From positions 6,140,001 to 6,204,000 of the forward strand of contig NZ_AP023189.1 of the NCBI RefSeq assembly GCF_012767755.2: a stretch of DNA of 64,000 bases, in the 5' to 3' direction. Below are positions 23,978 through 54,399 of the stretch, in pieces. Made by a program: the position numbers and the translations under genes. Below the pieces are notes generated by a model. It had not been told where the DNA came from and searched no databases. It saw only the letters and a program-made list of their open reading frames with translations. The DNA comes from Pseudomonas tohonis. Lineage in GTDB: Bacteria > Pseudomonadota > Gammaproteobacteria > Pseudomonadales > Pseudomonadaceae. The first letter of the stretch is position 1; each line of letters begins with the position of its first letter.

Positions 23978-25519
23978 ATGAGCAACAAGAACAATGAAGA
24001 CCTGCAGCGACAAGCCTCGGAGAACACCCTGGGCCTGAACCCGGTGATCGGCATCCGTGGTAAGGATCTGCTGACCTCCGCGCGCATGGTCATGCTGCAG
24101 GCCATCAAGCAGCCCTTCCACAGTGCCAAGCACGTCGCCCATTTCGGGGTCGAGCTGAAGAACGTCCTGCTCGGCTCCTCCGCCTTGCAACCCGAAGCCG
24201 ACGACCGTCGCTTCGCTGACCCGGCCTGGAGCCAGAACCCCCTCTACAAGCGCTACCTGCAGACCTACCTCGCCTGGCGCAAGGAACTGCACCAGTGGAT
24301 CGAGCACAGCGACCTGTCCGCATCCGACACCAGCCGCGGCCACTTCGTGATCAACCTGATGACCGAAGCCATGGACGCCTTCGAGGTCGGCAAGAACCTC
24401 GCCACCACCGAAGGGGCGGTGGTGTTCCGCAACGACGTGCTGGAACTGATCCAGTACAAGCCCATCACCGAGCAGGTGCACGAGCGCCCACTGCTGGTGG
24501 TGCCACCGCAGATCAACAAGTTCTACGTCTTCGACCTGTCCCAGGAGAAGAGCCTGGCGCGCTTCAACCTGCGCAACGGCATCCAGACCTTCATCGTCAG
24601 CTGGCGCAACCCGACCAAGGCCCAGCGCGAGTGGGGCCTGTCGACCTACATCGAAGCGCTCAAGGAAACCATCGAGGTGGTGCTGAAGATCACCGGCGCC
24701 AAGGACCTCAACATGCTCGGTGCCTGCTCCGGCGGCATCACCACCGTCGCCCTCCTGGGCCACTACCAGGCGATCGGCGAGCACAAGGTGCACGCCTTCA
24801 CCCAACTGGTCAGCGTGCTCGACTTCAACCTCGACACCCAGGTCGCGCTGTTCGCCGACGAAACCACCCTGGAAGCCGCCAAGCGCCGCTCGTACCAGTC
24901 CGGCGTGCTCGAAGGCAAGGACATGGCCAAGGTCTTCGCCTGGATGCGCCCCAACGACCTGATCTGGAACTACTGGGTGAACAACTACCTGCTCGGCAAC
25001 GAGCCGCCGGTGTTCGACATCCTCTACTGGAACAACGACACCACGCGCCTGCCCGCCGCCTTCCACGGCGAGCTGGTGGAGATGTTCAAGACCAACCCGC
25101 TGACCCGCCCCGATGCACTGGAGGTCTGTGGCACCCCGATCGACCTGAAGAAGGTCACCTGCGACTTCTTCTGCGTAGCCGGCACCACCGACCACATCAC
25201 CCCCTGGGAAGCCTGCTACCGCTCCGCCCGCCTGCTGGGCGGCAAATGCGAGTTCGTGCTGTCCAACAGCGGGCACATCCAGAGCATCCTCAACCCCCCG
25301 GGCAACCCCAAGGCGCGCTTCTCGACCAACAGCGAAATGCCGGTGGACCCGAAGGAATGGCAGGAGAACGCCACCAAGCACGCCGATTCCTGGTGGCTGT
25401 ACTGGCAGACCTGGCTGGCGGAGCGCTCGGGCAAGACCAAGAAGGCCAGCTTCACCCTCGGCAACAAGGCGTACCCGGCCGGCGAGGCATCGCCCGGGAC
25501 CTATGTCCACGAACGTTGA
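23978..25519 (+). CDS. phaC1: Class II PHA synthase 1 with a 46-residue internal deletion
   Basis: Polymerises (R)-3-hydroxyacyl-CoA (C6-C14) into medium-chain-length polyester at the granule surface. The reading frame is open and intact but gives 513 residues instead of the usual 559. After Met132 (NLMTEAM) the sequence jumps straight to DAFEVGKNLATTEG; the conserved segment that normally begins SPTNS or APSNS is missing. The triad remains: Cys250 in GACSGG, Asp405 in TTDHITPW and His433 in NSGHIQS. These are offset by exactly 46 from the usual positions and from Cys296 of PhaC2 in this cluster. Start ATG at 23978 (MSNKNNEDLQ). Whether the enzyme folds or works cannot be told; it may be a non-functional or altered synthase. 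Confidence 0.93.
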   Translation: MSNKNNEDLQRQASENTLGLNPVIGIRGKDLLTSARMVMLQAIKQPFHSAKHVAHFGVELKNVLLGSSALQPEADDRRFADPAWSQNPLYKRYLQTYLAWRKELHQWIEHSDLSASDTSRGHFVINLMTEAMDAFEVGKNLATTEGAVVFRNDVLELIQYKPITEQVHERPLLVVPPQINKFYVFDLSQEKSLARFNLRNGIQTFIVSWRNPTKAQREWGLSTYIEALKETIEVVLKITGAKDLNMLGACSGGITTVALLGHYQAIGEHKVHAFTQLVSVLDFNLDTQVALFADETTLEAAKRRSYQSGVLEGKDMAKVFAWMRPNDLIWNYWVNNYLLGNEPPVFDILYWNNDTTRLPAAFHGELVEMFKTNPLTRPDALEVCGTPIDLKKVTCDFFCVAGTTDHITPWEACYRSARLLGGKCEFVLSNSGHIQSILNPPGNPKARFSTNSEMPVDPKEWQENATKHADSWWLYWQTWLAERSGKTKKASFTLGNKAYPAGEASPGTYVHER

Positions 25520-25671: not shown

Positions 25672-26529
25672 ATGCCGCAACCTTTCGTCTTCCGCACCAT
25701 CGACCTCGATGGCCAGACCATCCGCACCGCCGTCAGGCCCGGCAAGGACCACCTGACGCCGCTGCTGATCTTCAACGGCATCGGTGCCAACCTCGAACTG
25801 GTGTTCCCCTTCGTCCAGGCGCTCGACCCGGACCAGGAGGTGATCGCCTTCGACGTCCCCGGTGTCGGCGGCTCGTCCACCCCGAGCAAGCCCTATCGCT
25901 TCCCCGGCCTGGCCAAGCTCGCCGCACGCATGCTCGACTACCTGAACTACGGCCAGGTCAACGCCATCGGCGTGTCCTGGGGCGGCGCCCTGGCGCAGCA
26001 GTTCGCGCACGACTACCCCGAGCGCTGCAAGAAGCTGATCCTCGCCGCCACCTCGGCCGGCGCGATCATGGTGCCCGGCAAGCCCAAGGTGCTCTGGCGC
26101 ATGGCCAGCCCGCGACGCTACATCCAGCCGTCCTACGGCGTGCACATCGCCCCGGACATCTACGGCGGCGCCTTCCGGCGCGACCCGACCCTGGCCATGG
26201 CCCACGCCAGCAAGGTGCGCTCCTCGGGCAAGCTCGGGTACTACTGGCAGCTGTTCGCCGGCCTCGGCTGGACCAGCATCCACTGGCTGCATCGCATCCG
26301 CCAACCGACCCTGGTCCTGGCCGGCGACGACGACCCGATCATCCCGCTGGTGAACATGCGCATGCTCGCCTGGCGCATCCCCAACTCGGAACTCCATGTC
26401 ATCGACGACGGCCACCTGTTCCTCGTGACCCGCGCGGAGACGGTGGCGCCGATCATCATGAAGTTCCTCGCCCAAGAGCGTCAGCGGGCAGTCATCCATC
26501 CGCAGCCCATGCAACTGCGCACCCCCTGA
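25672..26529 (+). CDS. phaZ: Intracellular mcl-PHA depolymerase
   Basis: Alpha/beta hydrolase that releases 3-hydroxyalkanoic acids from stored granules. The 285-residue product has the lipase box GVSWGG with Ser102, acid residue region AGDDDPIIP and His in DDGHLFLVTR. Start ATG at 25672 (MPQPFVFRTIDLDGQTI) with GGGG 7 nt upstream. It lies between the two synthase genes as in all mcl-PHA Pseudomonas, and a long hairpin follows. Confidence 0.96.
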   Translation: MPQPFVFRTIDLDGQTIRTAVRPGKDHLTPLLIFNGIGANLELVFPFVQALDPDQEVIAFDVPGVGGSSTPSKPYRFPGLAKLAARMLDYLNYGQVNAIGVSWGGALAQQFAHDYPERCKKLILAATSAGAIMVPGKPKVLWRMASPRRYIQPSYGVHIAPDIYGGAFRRDPTLAMAHASKVRSSGKLGYYWQLFAGLGWTSIHWLHRIRQPTLVLAGDDDPIIPLVNMRMLAWRIPNSELHVIDDGHLFLVTRAETVAPIIMKFLAQERQRAVIHPQPMQLRTP

Positions 26530-26713: not shown

Positions 26714-28396
26714 ATGCGAGAGAAACAGGTGTCGGGTGCCTTGCCGGTCCCCGCTAACTACATGAACGCGCAGAGCGCGATCGTCGGCTTGCGAGGCAAG
26801 GACCTGGCCTCCACCGTCCGCACCCTGGCCCTGCAGGGGCTCAAGCACCCCGTGCACAGCGCCCGGCACGTGCTCGCCTTCGGCGGGCAGCTCGGCCGCG
26901 TGCTGATGGGCGACACCCCGCACAAGCCCAATCCCCAGGACGCACGCTTCGCCGATCCCTCCTGGAGCCACAACCCGTTCTACCGTCGCGGCCTGCAGGC
27001 CTACCTGGCCTGGCAGAAACAGCTCTACGCCTGGGTCGAGGACAGTGACCTCAGCGACGACGACCGTGCCCGCGCGCGCTTCGTCCTGGCACTGGTCAGC
27101 GACGCCATGGCGCCGTCCAACAGCCTGCTCAATCCTCTGGCGGTCAAGGAGCTGTTCAACACCGGCGGCCTGAGCCTGATCAACGGCGTGCGCCACCTGT
27201 TCGACGACCTGCTGAACAACAACGCCATGCCCAGCCAGGTCAGCAAGCACGCCTTCGAGATCGGTCGCAACCTGGCCACCACCTCCGGCTCGGTGATCTA
27301 CCGCAACGAGCTGCTGGAGCTGATCCAGTACAAGCCGATGAGCGAGAAGCAGTACCTCAAGCCCCTGCTGATCGTTCCCCCGCAGATCAACAAGTTCTAC
27401 ATCTTCGACCTCTCGCCGGAGAAGAGCTTCGTCCAGTACGCGCTGAAGAACGGCCTGCAGGTGTTCATGGTCAGCTGGCGCAACCCCGATGCCCGCCACC
27501 GCGAATGGGGCCTGTCCACTTACGTGCAAGCGCTGGAGCAGGCGGTCGACGTGGCCCGCGCCATAACCGGCAGCAAGGACGTCAACCTGATGGGGGCCTG
27601 TGCCGGGGGCCTGACCATCGCCGCCCTGCAGGGCCACCTCCAGGCCAAGCGCCAGCTGCGCAAGGTCAGCAGCGCCAGCTACCTGGTGAGCCTGCTGGAC
27701 AGCCAGGTCGACAGCCCCGCCGCACTCTTCGCCGACGAGCAGACCCTGGAAGCGGCCAAGCGCCGCTCCTACCAGCACGGCGTGCTGGATGGCCGCGACA
27801 TGGCCAAGATCTTCGCCTGGATGCGTCCCAACGACCTGGTGTGGAACTACTTCGTCAACAACTACCTGCTGGGCCGCCAGCCACCGGCCTTCGACATCCT
27901 CTACTGGAACAACGACAACACCCGCCTGCCCGCCGCGCTGCATGGCGACCTGCTGGACTTCTTCAAGCACAACCCGCTCACCCGGGGCGGTGCGCTGGAA
28001 ATCTGCGGCACCCCGATCGACCTGCAGAAGGTCACGGTGGACAGCTTCAGCGTCGCCGGCATCAACGACCACATCACCCCCTGGGACGCGGTCTATCGCT
28101 CCGCGCGCCTGCTCGGTGGCGAGAGCCGCTTCGTGCTGTCCAACAGCGGGCACATCCAGAGCATCCTCAACCCGCCGGGCAACCCCAAGGCCAACTACCT
28201 GGAGAACGGCAAGCTCAGCTCCGACCACCGCGCCTGGTACTACGACGCGAAGAACGTCCAGGGCAGCTGGTGGCCCGAGTGGCTGAGCTGGATACAGGCG
28301 CGCTCGGGGGAGCAGCGCGAGACCCTGGTCGCCCTCGGCAACCAGGCCCACCCACCCATGGAGGCAGCACCCGGCACATACGTGCACGTGCGCTGA
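26714..28396 (+). CDS. phaC2: Class II PHA synthase 2
   Basis: Second medium-chain-length PHA synthase. The 560-residue product has full family length. The segment lost from PhaC1 is present here (residues 133-178, beginning APSNSLLNPLAVKELF). The nucleophile is Cys296 in GACAGG, the acid region INDHITPW and His in NSGHIQS. The ATG at 26714 has GGAG 10 nt upstream. It may be the only fully competent synthase of this cluster. phaD follows after 61 nt. Confidence 0.96.
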   Translation: MREKQVSGALPVPANYMNAQSAIVGLRGKDLASTVRTLALQGLKHPVHSARHVLAFGGQLGRVLMGDTPHKPNPQDARFADPSWSHNPFYRRGLQAYLAWQKQLYAWVEDSDLSDDDRARARFVLALVSDAMAPSNSLLNPLAVKELFNTGGLSLINGVRHLFDDLLNNNAMPSQVSKHAFEIGRNLATTSGSVIYRNELLELIQYKPMSEKQYLKPLLIVPPQINKFYIFDLSPEKSFVQYALKNGLQVFMVSWRNPDARHREWGLSTYVQALEQAVDVARAITGSKDVNLMGACAGGLTIAALQGHLQAKRQLRKVSSASYLVSLLDSQVDSPAALFADEQTLEAAKRRSYQHGVLDGRDMAKIFAWMRPNDLVWNYFVNNYLLGRQPPAFDILYWNNDNTRLPAALHGDLLDFFKHNPLTRGGALEICGTPIDLQKVTVDSFSVAGINDHITPWDAVYRSARLLGGESRFVLSNSGHIQSILNPPGNPKANYLENGKLSSDHRAWYYDAKNVQGSWWPEWLSWIQARSGEQRETLVALGNQAHPPMEAAPGTYVHVR

Positions 28397-28457: not shown

Positions 28458-29072
28458 ATGAAGACCCGAGACCGGATACTCGAATGCGCCCTGATGCTGT
28501 TCAACCGCGAGGGCGAGCCCAACGTCACCACCCTTGAAATCGCCACCGAACTGGGCATCAGCCCGGGCAACCTCTACTACCACTTCCACGGCAAGGAACC
28601 CCTGGTGATGGCGCTGCTGGAGCGCTTCCAGGATGAGCTCGCGCCCCTGCTCGACCCACCCGAGGACGTGGAGCTCGGCGTCGAGGACTACTGGCTGTTC
28701 CTGCACCTGATCGTCGAGCGCCTGGCGCAGTACCGCTTCCTCTTCCAGGACCTGTCCAACCTCGCCGGGCGGCTGCCCAAGCTGGCCCGTGGCATGCGCA
28801 GCTGGCTGAATGCCCTCAAGCGCACCCTGGCCTCGCTGCTGGCACGGCTCAAGGCGCGGGAACGACTGGTCAGCGATACCGAATCCCTCGGCCAGCTGGT
28901 CGAGCAGATCACCCTGACCCTGCTGTTCTCACTCGACTACCAGCGCATCCTCGGCAACGAAGGGGAAGTACGCCTGGTGGTGTACCAGATCATGATGCTG
29001 GTGGCCCCGCACCTGCAGGACGAATCACGCCAGGCCGCCGAACGCATGGCACGGCGCTACCTGGAAGCCTGA
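28458..29072 (+). CDS. phaD: TetR-family PHA regulator PhaD
   Basis: Activator of the phaC1 and phaI promoters in P. putida, thought to sense an intermediate of PHA metabolism. The 204-residue product has an N-terminal helix-turn-helix (MKTRDRILECALMLF, then ATELGISPGNLYYHFHGKE, about residues 10-50) and an alpha-helical ligand domain. The ATG at 28458 matches the family start; an upstream in-frame ATG at 28434 is less likely. Convergent with phaF across a shared hairpin. Confidence 0.95.
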   Translation: MKTRDRILECALMLFNREGEPNVTTLEIATELGISPGNLYYHFHGKEPLVMALLERFQDELAPLLDPPEDVELGVEDYWLFLHLIVERLAQYRFLFQDLSNLAGRLPKLARGMRSWLNALKRTLASLLARLKARERLVSDTESLGQLVEQITLTLLFSLDYQRILGNEGEVRLVVYQIMMLVAPHLQDESRQAAERMARRYLEA

Positions 29073-29118: not shown

Positions 29119-30030
29119 TCAGGACTGGCTTGGCGTGCTCGCCGGAGCGGCCGGTGCCGGAGTGGCGGCCGGGGTGCTCGGTGCAGCGGCCGGAGCCGGG
29201 GTCGCGGCCGGGGTCGCCGGCTTGGCGGCTGCCGGTTTCGGCGCAGCGGCTTTCTTCACCGCAGGCTTCTTCGCAGCAGGTTTGGCAGCGGGCTTCGCCG
29301 CAGGCTTGGCCGCAGCTGCAGGCTTGGCAGCGGCTGCGGGCTTGGCCGCCGCCGGCTTCGCCGCAGGTTTGGCTGCTGCCTTCGCAGCGGGTTTCGCGGC
29401 CGGCTTCGCAGCAGGCTTGGCGGCGGCCTTGGCTGCCGGTTTGGCGGCGGCGGTCTTCGCTGCAGGCTTCGCAGCGGCCTTCGCGGCCGGCTTGGCTGCC
29501 GGTTTGGCGGCGGGCTTGGCAGCCGGTTTGGCCGCAGCGGTCTTCGCAGCCGGCTTGGCGGCGGGTTTCGCTGCTGCCTTGGCGGCAGGCTTGACCGACT
29601 TGGCGGAGACGCCGGTGAGCTTCTCGATCTGACGGGTCAGGCTGTCGACCTTGCTGTTCAGGTCCTTCACTTCGTTACGGCTGGGTACGCCGAGACGGGA
29701 GATGGCACTGTTCAGGCGCTTGTCGAACGCCTCTTCCAGCTCGCTCCACTTGCCGATCGCCTTGTCCTTGACCTCATCGACCTTGGACTTGGCGGAGCCG
29801 ACGCGTGAACCAACGCGGGACTTGACCGCATCGACCTGCTTGTCGACTTCGGTCTTGGCCTGTTTTTCAGCCTTCTCACCGTCCTTGACCAGCGCATCGA
29901 ACAGCTTGGTGCCGTCGTTGCTGACCTTCGAGTAGGCCCCCAAGCCAGCCAGCCAGATCTGGCGCGAGTATTTCTCGATCTCGCCGATCCAGGAGTTGGT
30001 TTCTTTCGTGGTTTTTTTCTTACCAGCCAT
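29119..30030 (-). CDS. phaF: PHA granule-associated phasin and nucleoid-binding protein PhaF
   Basis: Coats PHA granules and ties them to DNA so that they are shared between daughter cells. The 303-residue product has an amphipathic N-terminal phasin domain (about 10-110, shared with PhaI), a short leucine-zipper-like coiled coil (about 123-143, VKDLNSKVDSLTRQIEKLTG), and a long histone H1-like C-terminal tail of KPAA/AKPA repeats (about 150-275) ending in a Thr/Pro/Ala segment. The ATG at 30030 has AAGGAG upstream. It is 10 nt after phaI and in one unit with it. The repeats are low complexity and their number is expected to vary. Confidence 0.96.
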   Translation of the reverse strand: MAGKKKTTKETNSWIGEIEKYSRQIWLAGLGAYSKVSNDGTKLFDALVKDGEKAEKQAKTEVDKQVDAVKSRVGSRVGSAKSKVDEVKDKAIGKWSELEEAFDKRLNSAISRLGVPSRNEVKDLNSKVDSLTRQIEKLTGVSAKSVKPAAKAAAKPAAKPAAKTAAAKPAAKPAAKPAAKPAAKAAAKPAAKTAAAKPAAKAAAKPAAKPAAKPAAKAAAKPAAKPAAAKPAAAAKPAAAAKPAAKPAAKPAAKKPAVKKAAAPKPAAAKPATPAATPAPAAAPSTPAATPAPAAPASTPSQS

Positions 30031-30040
30031 CCTGCTCTCC

Positions 30041-30481
30041 TTATTTGGTTCGCGCGACGTGCTCGAGCAACGCGCTCAGCTCATCAAGCTTAGCAGAGAG
30101 TGCCTCAACGTCCTGTCGCGAGGGAATACCCAGGCGATTGAGGGCGACGGCGACACGGTTGTCGAACGCCTTTTCGATCTTGTCGAGCTGCACTTCGACC
30201 TTTTCCTTCACGCCGGTGACCGAGCCCTTCACGCTGCCCTTCACCGAATCGATCTGGCTGTTGGCGGCTTCGACGCGCGCATCGACGGCCTTGCGGCCCT
30301 GCTTCTCGACACCCTCGCCGGCCTTCACCAGGTCACGCAGGTAGTCGGCGCCCTCCTGCCCGGCCTTGGCGTAGGCACCCAGGCCGGCCAGCCAGATCTT
30401 GCGGGCATAGAGACGGACATCGGAAAGGACGGTGGTCTTGCTTGCTTCGACTTTCTTCTTGACGACGGCTGCTTTGGCCAT
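30041..30481 (-). CDS. phaI: PHA granule-associated phasin PhaI
   Basis: Small phasin of the PHA granule surface. The 146-residue product is collinear with the N-terminal domain of PhaF (KIWLAGLGAYAKAGQEG against QIWLAGLGAYSKVSNDG) but lacks the KPAA tail. It ends in a leucine-rich zipper (VEALSAKLDELSALLEHV). The ATG at 30481 has GAGGTG 4 nt upstream; an ATG at 30493 is rejected as too far from it. Confidence 0.95.
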   Translation of the reverse strand: MAKAAVVKKKVEASKTTVLSDVRLYARKIWLAGLGAYAKAGQEGADYLRDLVKAGEGVEKQGRKAVDARVEAANSQIDSVKGSVKGSVTGVKEKVEVQLDKIEKAFDNRVAVALNRLGIPSRQDVEALSAKLDELSALLEHVARTK

Positions 30482-30644
30482 GGTGCACCTCACTCGGATA
30501 ATGGAGGACTCGCCCTTTCTCAGGGCTTGGGGTGCACGTTAGCGAGGAAAATTAGAAACCGCATACTAGCCGCGGGTAGGGTCCGGTCGGCCGGGGCGCC
30601 CCGTGGAGCCCGTCATGGCGAAGCCGTTGCGGCCCCGCCGGAAC
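30482..30644 (-). promoter_or_regulatory. phaI promoter region with candidate regulator site
   Basis: The upstream gap carries GCG-AGGAAAATTAGAA-ACCGC (30542-30562), similar in layout to the palindrome before phaC1, and two GGTGCAC boxes (30483-30489 and 30531-30537), the first forming the palindrome GGTGCACC next to the ribosome site. Binding by PhaD is plausible but unproven; a -35/-10 pair could not be fixed. Confidence 0.4.
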
Positions 30645-37163: not shown

Positions 37164-39080
37164 ATGTTCCGCTGGTTCGGCAATATCAGTGTCAACCTCA
37201 AGCTGACCCTCGGCTTCGGCCTGGTACTGCTGCTCACGGTGCTCATCACCCTCACCGGCTGGCTGGCCCTCGACGCCACCCTGGAGCGCGGCGACAAGCT
37301 CGGCGCCAGCGCCAAGCTCAGCGAGATGACCAAGGACCTGCGCATCGCCCGCCAGGAGTACCAGATCAAGCAGGAGCCGGCGACGGCCGACAGGGTCGAC
37401 GCCGCACTCAAGGCGATCGAGGCCTTCGCCCAGGAGCTCGACAAGCAACTCAGCGATCCCAGGGACCACGACCTCATCGATCAGGAGGAAGCCGCGCTCG
37501 GCGCCTACCGGCAGGCCTTCGGCCAGCTCGGCCAGGCCTACCAGGCCCGTGAGGCTTCACGCGCGCAGCTCGGCGCCAGCGCCGATGCCGCCGTGCTGGC
37601 GATCGGCGAGATCGAGCAGCGCATCCTCTCCGACATCGCCCTGGACGAAGCCTCGCGCCTCGACCAGTACCGCCAGATCAACGAACTGCGCCTCGCCGTG
37701 CAACAGGCCCGCTTCCAGGTGCGCGGCTACACCTACAGCAACGACCCCAGCCTGGAACAGGCCGCCCTCACCGCCGTGGATACCGCCCTGGCCGGCCAGG
37801 CCAAGCTCGGCGAGACGCTGGGTGAGGACGAAGACCTGGCCAAGGTCGCCGCCGGCCTCAAGGCCTACCGCGCCGCCATCGGCGCCTTCCGCAGCGCCAC
37901 CGACGCCACCCTGGTGCACGCCCAGGCCATGACCACGCAGCGCGACAAGCTGTTGCAGATCAGCAACCAGCTGTTCGAGAGCCAGTCCGCCAAGCGCGAG
38001 AGCGAATCCGCCCAGACCCGCACCCTGCTGCTGACGGCCATCGCCATCGCCCTGGCCATCGGCATCGCCGCCGCCGTGATCATCACCCGGCAGATCGTCC
38101 TGCCGCTGCAGCGCACCCTGGCCGTGGCCGAACGCATCGCCTCGGGCGACCTGAGCGAAGACCTCAAGGTCGATCGCGGCGACGAACTCGGCCAACTGCA
38201 GAAGAGCATGCAGCGCATGACCCTGAGCCTGCGCGAACTGATCGGCCATATCCGTGACGGCGTCACCCAGATCGCCAGCGCCGCCGAGCAGCTTTCCGCC
38301 GTCACCGGGCAGACCAGCGCGGGGGTCAACAACCAGAAGGTCGAGACCGACCAGGTCGCCACCGCCATGAACGAGATGGCCGCCACCGTGCAGGAAGTCG
38401 CGCGCAACGCCGAGCAGGCTTCCGAGGCCGCCAGTTCCGCCGACCGCCTGTCCCGCGAGGGCGAGGTGGCGGTGAACGAGGCGGTCGAGCAGATGGATCG
38501 CCTGGCCACCGAAGTGGGCCGCTCCAACGAGGCCGTCGGCCGCCTCAAGCAGGAGAGCGAGAAGATCGGCAGCGTGCTCGACGTGATCAAGTCGGTGGCC
38601 GAGCAGACCAACCTGCTGGCCCTCAACGCCGCCATCGAAGCCGCCCGCGCGGGCGACGCCGGGCGTGGGTTCGCCGTGGTGGCGGACGAGGTGCGCGGCC
38701 TGGCCCAGCGCACGCAGAAATCCACCGAGGAGATCGAGGAACTGATCGCCGGCCTGCAGAGCGGCACCCAGCAGGCCGCCAGCCTGATGGACACCAGCCG
38801 CAGCCTGACCGAAAACACCGTCGAGCTGACCCGCCGTGCCGGCCGCCGCCTGGGCACCATCGCCCAGGCCGTTTCCACCATCCAGCAGATGAACCAGCAG
38901 ATCGCCGCGGCCGCCGAGCAGCAGGGCGCGGTGGCCGAGGAGATCAACCGCAGCGTCATCAACGTGCGCGACATCTCCGAGCAGACCGCCTCGGCCAGCG
39001 AGGAAACCGCCGCTTCCAGCATCGAGCTGGCGCGCCTGGGCAATGAACTGCAATCGATGGTCTCGCGCTTCCGCGTCTGA
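37164..39080 (+). CDS. Methyl-accepting chemotaxis protein with large helical sensor domain
   Basis: Transmembrane chemoreceptor that signals to CheA/CheW. The 638-residue product has TM1 (about 12-34), a periplasmic all-helical domain of about 250 residues (size and helix pattern of the HBM bimodular class), TM2 (about 287-308), HAMP (about 309-362) and the signalling hairpin with [20 protein letters not shown]. In P. aeruginosa the receptor at this locus is McpK, which senses 2-oxoglutarate; using that ligand here is inference. The ATG at 37164 has GGAG 8 nt upstream. Confidence 0.93.
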
Positions 39081-51367: not shown

Positions 51368-52774
51368 TCAGTCATCCAGACTCAACACGGACGGCATCTC
51401 CTGCCGCCCCTCACCAGCGCCCGGCCGCACCCAGATGAACCAGGCGATGACCAGCAGGGCGATCCACACCGCGCCGACCAGCAGCGCGGCCTGGGTCTTC
51501 GGGAACCAGCCGAGCACCCCGAAGATGAACAGCATGAAGGCGATGGCGCAGGCCGGGCCCACCGGCCAGAACGGCACCGGGAAGGCCAGCGCCGCCACTT
51601 CTTCGCGGCCGAGGCGACGGCGCAGGCCGACCTGGGCCAGGAGGATCATCAGCCACACCCAGACGGTGGCGAAGGTGGCGATGGAGGCCACCAGCAGGAA
51701 CACGTTCTCCGGGATCAGGTAGTTCAGCAGCACGCCCAGCAGCAGCGCACCGGCCATCACCAGCACCGTCATCCAGGGCACGCCATGGCGCGAGACCCTG
51801 GCGAAGCCCGAGGGCGCCTGGCCTTGCTGGGCCATGCCGAAGAGCATGCGGCCGGCGCCGAAGATGTCGCTGTTGATCGCCGAGACGGCTGCCGAGATCA
51901 CCACCAGGTTGAGCAGGGTGGCGGCCGAGCCGATGCCCAGGCTGTCGAAGATCTGCACGAAGGGGCTGCCCTGGGTGCCGATCTGCGGCCAGGGGAAGAT
52001 CGCCATCAGCACGAACAGGGTCAGCACGTAGAACAGCAGGATGCGCAGCGGTACCGCGTTGATCGCCTTGGGGATGGTGCGACGCGGGTCCTGCGCCTCG
52101 CCGGCGGTGATGCCGATGATCTCGATGCCGCCGAAGGCGAACACCACCACCGCGAAGGAGGCGATCAGCCCGCCCAGGCCGTTGGGCATGAAGCCGCCGT
52201 GGCTCCAGAGGTTGGCGACGCTGGCGGCATGGGTCGCGTCGGCCATGCCGAAACCAAACAGGAGGATGCCGAAGCCGCCGAGGATCATGGCGACGATGGC
52301 CGAGACCTTGAGCAGCGACAGCCAGAATTCCAGTTCGCCGAACACCCGCACGCTGCACAGGTTGAGGGCGCCGATGAAGAAGATGATCGACAGCACCCAG
52401 ATCCAGCGCGGCACCTCGGGGAACCAGAAGCTCATGTAGATGCCGAAGGCGGTCACGTCGGCCAGGCAGACGATGATCATCTCGAAGGCGTAGGTCCAGC
52501 CGGTGAGGAAGCCCGCCAGCGGGCCGATGTAGCTGCTCGCGTACTGGCCGAACGAGCCCGCCACCGGTTCGCGCACCGCCATCTCCCCGAGGGCGCGCAT
52601 CACCATGTAAACCGCCGCCCCGGCCATCAGGTAGGCCATGAGCACCGCCGGCCCGGCCATCTGGATGGCCGACGCCGAACCATAGAACAGGCCCGTGCCG
52701 ATGGCCGAACCCAGTGCCATGAAACGTATGTGCCGGGCGTTGAGGCCCCGGCGCAGGCTGGTCTGTACAGTCAT
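51368..52774 (-). CDS. hutT: Histidine permease, APC superfamily
   Basis: A 468-residue amino-acid permease with 12 predicted membrane helices and the AAT-family N-terminal signature [20 protein letters not shown], followed by [17 protein letters not shown]. It imports histidine by proton symport in related pseudomonads; specificity here comes from operon position. The ATG at 52774 ([12 protein letters not shown]) is the family start. A hairpin lies between it and hutH. Confidence 0.92.
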
Positions 52775-52813
52775 TCCCTTGTTCTCCTTGTTCTTGGGGT
52801 GGTGGGCGGCTCC

Positions 52814-52834
52814 GGCGCCTCCATCGCAGGCGCC
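52814..52834 (-). other. Hairpin between hutH and hutT
   Basis: GGCGCCT (52814-52820) pairs with AGGCGCC (52828-52834), with GC-rich flanks that extend the stem. It lies 33 nt past the hutH stop on the minus strand; no T tract. Confidence 0.45.
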
Positions 52835-52866
52835 GCCCGGCATGGCGGGTAGTCGGGGTGCCGGCC

Positions 52867-54399
52867 TCAGAGGCTCGGCAGCAGGCCCTCCGGCATCAGC
52901 GCGTTGAGGCAACCGCTGGCCAGCAGCGCGCTGGCGGCCTCGATGTCAGGGGCGAAGAAACGGTCCTCCTGGTAGTAGGGCACCTGGCCGCGCAGCAGGG
53001 CGCGGGCCTCCTCCAGCTTCGGCGAGCTCTTCAGCCCTTCGCGGAAGTCCAGGCCCTGACAGGCGCCCAGCCACTCCACGGCGAGGATGCCGCGCACGTT
53101 CTCGGCCATGGCCCAGAGGCGCTTGCCGGCGTTCGGCGCCATGGAGACGTGGTCTTCCTGGTTGGCCGAGGTGGGCAGGCTGTCGACGCTGTGCGGATGG
53201 GCCAGCGCCTTGTTGTCGCTGGCCAGGGCGGCAGCGGTGACCTGGGCGATCATGAAGCCGGAGTTGACCCCGCCATTGGCCACCAGGAAGGGCGGCAGCT
53301 GCGACATGTGCTTGTCCATCATCAGCGAGATGCGCCGCTCGGAGAGCGAGCCGATCTCGGCGATGGCCAGGGCCAGGTTGTCGGCGACCAGGGCCACGGG
53401 CTCGGCGTGGAAGTTGCCACCGGAGACCACGTCACCCTGCTCGGCGAACACCAGCGGGTTGTCGGAGACGGCGTTGGCCTCGACCTCCAGCACCTCGGCG
53501 GCCTGGCGCATCTGGGTCAGGCAGGCGCCCATCACCTGGGGCTGGCAGCGCAGGGAGTACGGGTCCTGCACCTTGTCGCACTGGGCATGGGAGCGCGCCA
53601 CCTCGCTGCTCTCGGTGAGCAGCGAGCGGTAGGCGGCGGCGACGTCGATCTGCCCGCGCTGGCCCCGGGCGGCGTGGATGCGCGCATCGAAGGGCGCCCG
53701 CGAGCCGAGCATGGCCTCGACGCTGAGCCCGCCGCAGACGGTGGCGGCGGCGAACAGGTCCTCGGCCTCGAACAGCCCGCGCAGGGCATAGGCGGTGGAA
53801 GCCTGGGTGCCGTTGAGCAGGGCCAGGCCCTCCTTGGCGGCCAGGGTCAGCGGCTCCAGCCCGGCGATGGCCAGGGCCTCGGTGGCCGGCAGCCACTGGC
53901 CCTTGTGGCGGGCGCGGCTCTCGCCGAGCAGCAGCAGGGACATGTGCGCCAGGGGCGCGAGGTCACCGGAGGCGCCCACCGAGCCCTTGAGCGGGATGTG
54001 CGGGTAGACCTCGGCGTTGATCAGGGCGATCAGCGCGTCGATCACCTTGCGGCGGATGCCGGAGAAGCCACGGGCCAGGCTGTTGACCTTGAGCAGCATG
54101 ATCATCCGCACCAGGGCGTCGTCCAGCGGCTCGCCGACACCGGCGGCATGGGACAGCACCAGGGAGCGCTGCAGCTTCTCCAGGTCCTCGCGGGCGATGC
54201 GGGTGGAGGCCAGCAGGCCGAAGCCGGTGTTGATGCCGTAGGCGGTGCGGTCCTCGGCGATGATGCGTTCCACACAGGCGACGCTGGCCTCGATGGGCGC
54301 GTCGGCGCTGGCGTCCAGGCTCACGCGCACCGGCCCGAGATGAACCTTGCGCAGCTGGGCCAGGGTCAGTCGACCGGGCAGAAGATGGAGGTCGAACAT
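52867..54399 (-). CDS. hutH: Histidine ammonia-lyase
   Basis: First step of histidine breakdown: L-histidine to urocanate and ammonia. The 510-residue product keeps the MIO-forming Ala-Ser-Gly in [16 protein letters not shown] (about 139-154) and [23 protein letters not shown] and [11 protein letters not shown]. The ATG at 54399 ([11 protein letters not shown]) is preferred over the ATG at 54405, since GGGGG lies 7 nt from the former and 1 nt from the latter. It follows hutU by 2 nt. This is the competent lyase of the locus, unlike the homologue at 46958-48511. Confidence 0.96.

Follow-up and report, generated by a model that had tools for sequence, protein, structure and literature searches.

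A 138-nt in-frame deletion in phaC1 of Pseudomonas tohonis, beside an intact phaC2

The phaC1 gene in the window (the whole 64-kb stretch of DNA analyzed here) encodes a class II PHA synthase that is shorter than its counterparts in other genomes of the genus. The locus raises the question of what this gene has lost, how the loss arose, and whether the shortened PhaC1 is still a working enzyme. The gene lies in the operon phaC1-phaZ-phaC2-phaD, which is present in the window together with divergent phasin genes (Table 1). The names phaZ and phaD are presumed from operon position, and we take the two phasin genes to be phaF and phaI.

Table 1. Features of the pha region, in window coordinates.
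Feature	Position	Strand	Remarks
phaC1, class II PHA synthase gene with 138-nt in-frame deletion	23978..25519	+	513 aa
Deletion junction, one CATGG remaining	24370..24374	+	nearest relative (G009) has two copies 138 nt apart
phaC1 catalytic (alpha/beta hydrolase) domain, residues 133-513	24374..25516	+	boundary inferred from solved constructs
phaZ-type depolymerase, alpha/beta hydrolase	25672..26529	+	285 aa
phaC2, intact class II PHA synthase	26714..28396	+	560 aa; only other PhaC found in the genome
phaC2 stretch matching the piece lost from phaC1 (residues 133-178)	27110..27247	+	
phaD-type TetR regulator	28458..29072	+	ATG start chosen; longer frame from 28434
phaF-type phasin, AAKPA-rich tail	29119..30030	-	
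phaI-type phasin	30041..30493	-	

The phaC1 reading frame was uninterrupted through 513 codons and lacked exactly 138 nt that are kept in all 17 other genomes of the genus. PhaC1 was 559 aa long in 15 of these genus mates and 560 aa in one (L019), and was listed as 585 aa in another (L020). Aligned as DNA, the 18 genes showed a single 138-nt gap, in the window phaC1. When the window PhaC1 was aligned with the proteins of 16 genus mates (L020, the 17th, was omitted because of a frameshift), one 46-residue gap appeared in the window protein, corresponding to residues 133–178 of the 559-aa relatives, and no other indel save one extra residue in L019. These results bore out the original prediction, which had described an intact frame of 513 residues instead of 559 and had attributed the difference to one deletion rather than to divergence. 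The later landmarks were offset by 46 as it had said: Cys250, Asp405, and His433 of the window protein matched residues 296, 451, and 479 of the relatives. A lipase-like box, GACSGG, was present at residue 248 (with Cys250), and the catalytic Cys, Asp, and His were invariant across the 52 aligned sequences.

Against the NCBIfam class II profile (TIGR01839), the window PhaC1 scored 931.6 bits and passed the cut-off of 855.4, in two stretches. The match to PF07167 (PhaC_N) was interrupted, with pieces at profile positions 1–59 and 109–172 and positions 60–108 absent. The gene showed no stops, no frameshifts, and no excess of amino-acid changes, such that it did not resemble a pseudogene formed by decay. 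We classed the gene by descent, as a deletion allele of phaC1, rather than by function as an active class II synthase.

The original prediction had proposed an alignment with PhaC1 of relatives, and the segment proved to be present in all 17 genus mates. That is, in a search of 18 genomes that included the window’s own (G000), phaC1 of each of the other 17 matched in pieces flanking a 46-residue insert. One of these genes, in P. alcaligenes MRY13-0052 (G008; L020/L053), contained the segment but had one C too many in a C-run close to its 3' end, which shifts the frame. We did not count it as a second phaC1 loss among the relatives, because this is a draft genome and the change, in a homopolymer, could be a sequencing error. 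The segment was likewise found in 80 of the 80 loci retained from a wider genome scan; these ranked as the best 80 of 586 relatives confirmed in the scan, a selection that favors close and complete ones, and six of them (L033–L037 and L053) repeated genus mates already counted, leaving about 74 independent of the 17. The motif (E/D/Q/N)AM(A/S)P(S/T)N occurred in 70 of the 80 loci, and the other 10 had a close variant, as judged by eye.

Searches for the junction itself gave few matches. A 65-aa query at E ≤ 1e-20, a threshold that neither half of an intact gene attained, found the contiguous junction only in the window’s genome among 298 family genomes. A degenerate pattern, with at most one mismatch allowed, occurred in 2 of 398 family genomes, namely the window’s own and one place in G211 (L113); both searches could miss deletions that end elsewhere or that lie in a PhaC of much greater divergence. 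The match in G211 was rejected as a second carrier, as it was non-PhaC-like in the one frame translated. In the literature, judged mostly by titles and the openings of abstracts, we found no natural internal phaC1 deletion. From these comparisons the phaC1 deletion is apparently unique to the window’s genome.

In the nearest relative (G009), the missing DNA starts with CATGG and is followed directly by another CATGG, whereas the window keeps one copy. Because CATGG is common to both ends, the exact break is ambiguous within these five bases, and BLAST alignments of the window to the nearest relative overlapped by exactly the same five. The original prediction had called recombination at a tiny direct repeat plausible, given ATG codons next to both ends of the segment in relatives. 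Such a repeat is plausible as the cause, but it is the 5-nt CATGG and not just ATG; moreover, the right-hand context given as VDM is VNM in the 17 genus mates. In the gene of the nearest relative, junction homology of at least 5 nt was found for 24 of 1542 possible 138-nt deletions, and for 710 of 77,621 sampled deletions with lengths of 30–399 nt. These counts favor slippage or another microhomology event, short of proof. We suggest that the two CATGG copies may have mispaired during replication, through this 5-nt microhomology, and that 138 nt were thereby lost in frame, an outcome expected 1 time in 3 by chance.

The original prediction located the loss in the conserved synthase core, at the start of the catalytic core. 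We rejected a catalytic-core deletion because the catalytic domains of known structure lie wholly beyond the gap: the constructs 5xav, 6k3c, 5hz2, and 5t6o matched the window protein only from residue 134 or 135, just past the junction. Full-length A. caviae PhaC (9knj/9knk/9knl, released 2025) includes the segment. In Chromobacterium PhaC, the catalytic construct comprises residues 175–567, and the full-length protein is described as having a protease-sensitive, seemingly flexible region ahead of that construct (PMC5509742). Judged by where these constructs begin, the lost piece consists of the last part of the N-terminal domain and the linker; the window PhaC1 retains 132 N-terminal residues and the complete catalytic domain.

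Conservation of the segment was high, though not extreme. In an alignment of 51 sequences, drawn from 9 of the 17 genus mates and 41 of the 80 loci together with the window PhaC2, mean column identity was 0.926 for the segment, compared to 0.858 for residues 1–132 and 0.881 for residues 179–559. Eighteen of the 46 segment columns were invariant, and the segment’s mean conservation ranked 89th among 514 windows of 46 residues.

The segment also touches positions associated with monomer choice. In the A. caviae PhaC chain, residue 151 is Asn and residue 173 is Asp; the native protein presumably has 594 residues and the chain has 596, and with the resulting two-residue offset in numbering these would correspond to N149 and D171. 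Substitutions at N149 and D171 in A. caviae PhaC raise 3-hydroxyhexanoate incorporation (PMC7966705). With the numbering inferred in this way, N149 would align to E130 of the window protein, which is retained as the third residue before the break, whereas the counterpart of D171 would fall inside the lost segment. E130 is an engineering site as well, since an engineered Pseudomonas synthase carries E130D (PMC6403647).

The window PhaC1 therefore invites comparison with several kinds of synthase. It resembles the Pseudomonas PhaC1 described by TIGR01839 in operon place, start, N-terminal helices, catalytic domain, and C-terminus, and it differs from this type in being without residues 133–178 (513 versus 559 aa). 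Its catalytic half starts where the class I constructs named above start; unlike those constructs, it still bears 132 N-terminal residues, fused directly to the catalytic domain. In the class I PhaC BP-M-CPF4, truncation likewise removed part of the N-domain and kept the catalytic domain; those were laboratory truncations from the N-terminus, whereas the deletion in the window is natural, internal, and in an enzyme of class II (PMC10867992).

We consider it most probable, at roughly two chances in three, that the window gene is a recent strain- or species-level loss- or reduction-of-function allele of phaC1 beside an intact PhaC2. The product would run from its N-terminal helices straight into the start of the catalytic domain. 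This arrangement could disturb docking of the N-domain and dimerization, such that PhaC1 activity would be lost or strongly reduced and the intact PhaC2 would be left as the maker of medium-chain-length PHA.

By analogy with the class I truncations, which cut PHA content, loss of the joint between the N-domain and the catalytic domain should impair PhaC1. When the first 103 residues of BP-M-CPF4 were removed, PHA on fructose fell from 78.0 to 0.5 wt% and PHA on palm kernel oil from 75.8 to 10.3 wt%, although this truncation was confounded by a drop in mRNA of more than 80% (PMC10867992). The authors tie loss of the N-domain to weaker dimers and altered monomer choice (PMC10867992). The comparison is between a class I enzyme truncated at one end of the N-domain and the window PhaC1, whose gap is at the opposite end.

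Structure prediction gave poor models for both the shortened and the intact protein, which do not tell a folded chain from a misfolded one. Mean AlphaFold2 pLDDT was 61.8 for the window PhaC1 (52 alignment rows) and 62.7 for the intact protein of the nearest relative (51 rows), with close relatives only in both alignments, which is probably why the models are weak. In the intact model, residues 135–156 and 158–190 were below 50 pLDDT, in a model equally poor overall. Foldseek searches with these low-pLDDT models ranked known PhaC structures first, and below them mostly other alpha/beta hydrolases.

The original prediction had suggested that PhaC2 could be left as the working synthase. PhaC2 is the remaining full-length synthase: its frame was intact, and it was the sole other PhaC found. 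The PhaC2 stretch that matches the lost piece was also located where it had been placed (Table 1). A protein search of the window’s genome found phaC1 and phaC2 alone, and a PF07167 search found the same two genes. When the 138 nt of a relative were searched against this genome, 41 matches were obtained at E ≤ 10, of which the sole long one was phaC2 (73%, 137 nt). A second full-length phaC1 in the genome, or the lost segment at another place in it, was rejected on these three negative searches. If the phaC1 allele is dead, the event would be a commonplace small deletion affecting one of a pair of related genes, and the main point would be that the shortened PhaC1 passes the class II profile cut-off like a normal synthase.

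We examined codon changes on the window’s branch, taking G009 and G008 for sister genomes, with G004 as the outgroup, and counting only codons where the window alone differed; this strict count skips codons where the other genomes differ among themselves. Window-only changes numbered 20 synonymous and 0 non-synonymous in phaC1, and 25 synonymous and 1 non-synonymous in phaC2. Under free drift, about 2.4 to 3.2 non-synonymous changes would be expected per synonymous change, so that the ratio on this branch looks like that of a gene under normal constraint. The pairwise dN/dS of phaC1 to the nearest relative was 0.0034/0.1603. Outside the gap the two PhaC1 proteins differed at four amino acids (columns 115, 318, 427, and 503). 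At column 503 the window had a residue that none of the compared genus mates shared, and column 115 was a possible second window change; by the outgroup, columns 318 and 427 were not window changes.

As a rough estimate, free drift after the deletion could occupy at most about a tenth of the branch (2 events observed, with ~6 as their upper limit, divided by 20 × 2.7). The scarcity of amino-acid changes on this branch suggests either that the deletion, and with it any inactivation, is recent, or that the shortened PhaC1 is still under selection.

The second of these options leads to a different reading, in which PhaC1 tolerates the loss and stays active, possibly with a changed monomer range, oligomer state, or granule behavior, and selection still acts on the frame. 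We regard this as unlikely, even though the deletion is in frame, the catalytic residues are kept, and amino-acid changes are few (20 synonymous to 0 in the strict count, with one or two at the protein level). The selection signal spans the whole branch since the split and gives no date for the deletion. None of the 17 genus mates and none of the 80 retained loci (the best 80 of 586) is without the segment, which exceeds the remainder of the N-domain in conservation and forms the junction between domains. On the other side, the gap would take the position matching D171 and lie close to the kept E130 (which would match N149), and changes at D171 and N149 alter monomer incorporation (PMC7966705).

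Class III PhaC subunits do without this region, although they act together with a partner. Their profile (TIGR01836) has no counterpart to the stretch and matched window residues 140–434 only, at 102.4 bits, which fails its cut-off of 365.3; unlike the window PhaC1, class III PhaC requires the partner subunit PhaE (PMC6403647).

A more specific form of the same idea, a naturally minimized class II synthase whose N-terminal helices are joined directly to the catalytic domain with changed dimerization and monomer choice, seems slightly more doubtful still. If it were true, the region in which specificity mutations such as D171G fall would be dispensable for catalysis. A working protein of this kind would be a natural experiment on the role of the N-domain end and linker in PHA synthases, for which the catalytic-domain structures are without the segment and full-length structures date only from 2025.

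The weakest alternative, that a sequencing, assembly, or culture artefact conceals a full-length phaC1 in wild cells, is improbable, although the deletion is known from a single genome and no other searched genome has it. The genome is one contig of 6,826,062 bp, in which the window spans 6140001–6204000. Assembly collapse is unlikely because the 5-nt repeat is too short and the 138 nt have no good match in the rest of the genome other than phaC2 (73%); both junction flanks are phaC1’s own, which argues against a phaC1/phaC2 chimera. A mutation that arose in culture is possible. The loss of 138 nt in phaC1 beside an intact phaC2 is best read as a recent allele of the strain or species.

The 64-kb window was collinear with the nearest relative save for three larger breaks, none in the pha genes, at about 38–39 kb, 44.9 kb, and 51.5–52.9 kb. 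Within alignments of at least 300 columns, the largest gap was at most 19 nt. Window positions 51492–52867 had no alignment of at least 300 columns to the nearest relative, and this stretch may be replaced or highly diverged. At 37164–39080, the window contained one chemotaxis receptor gene (638 aa, with HBM sensor, HAMP, and MCP signalling domain), whereas the nearest relative had two in tandem at this site (L120/L121; 638 and 646 aa), the second judged by a C-terminal match only. Lastly, the tail of the phaF-type phasin gene showed five gaps relative to the nearest relative, all of them multiples of three bases, as expected of a repeat tract.
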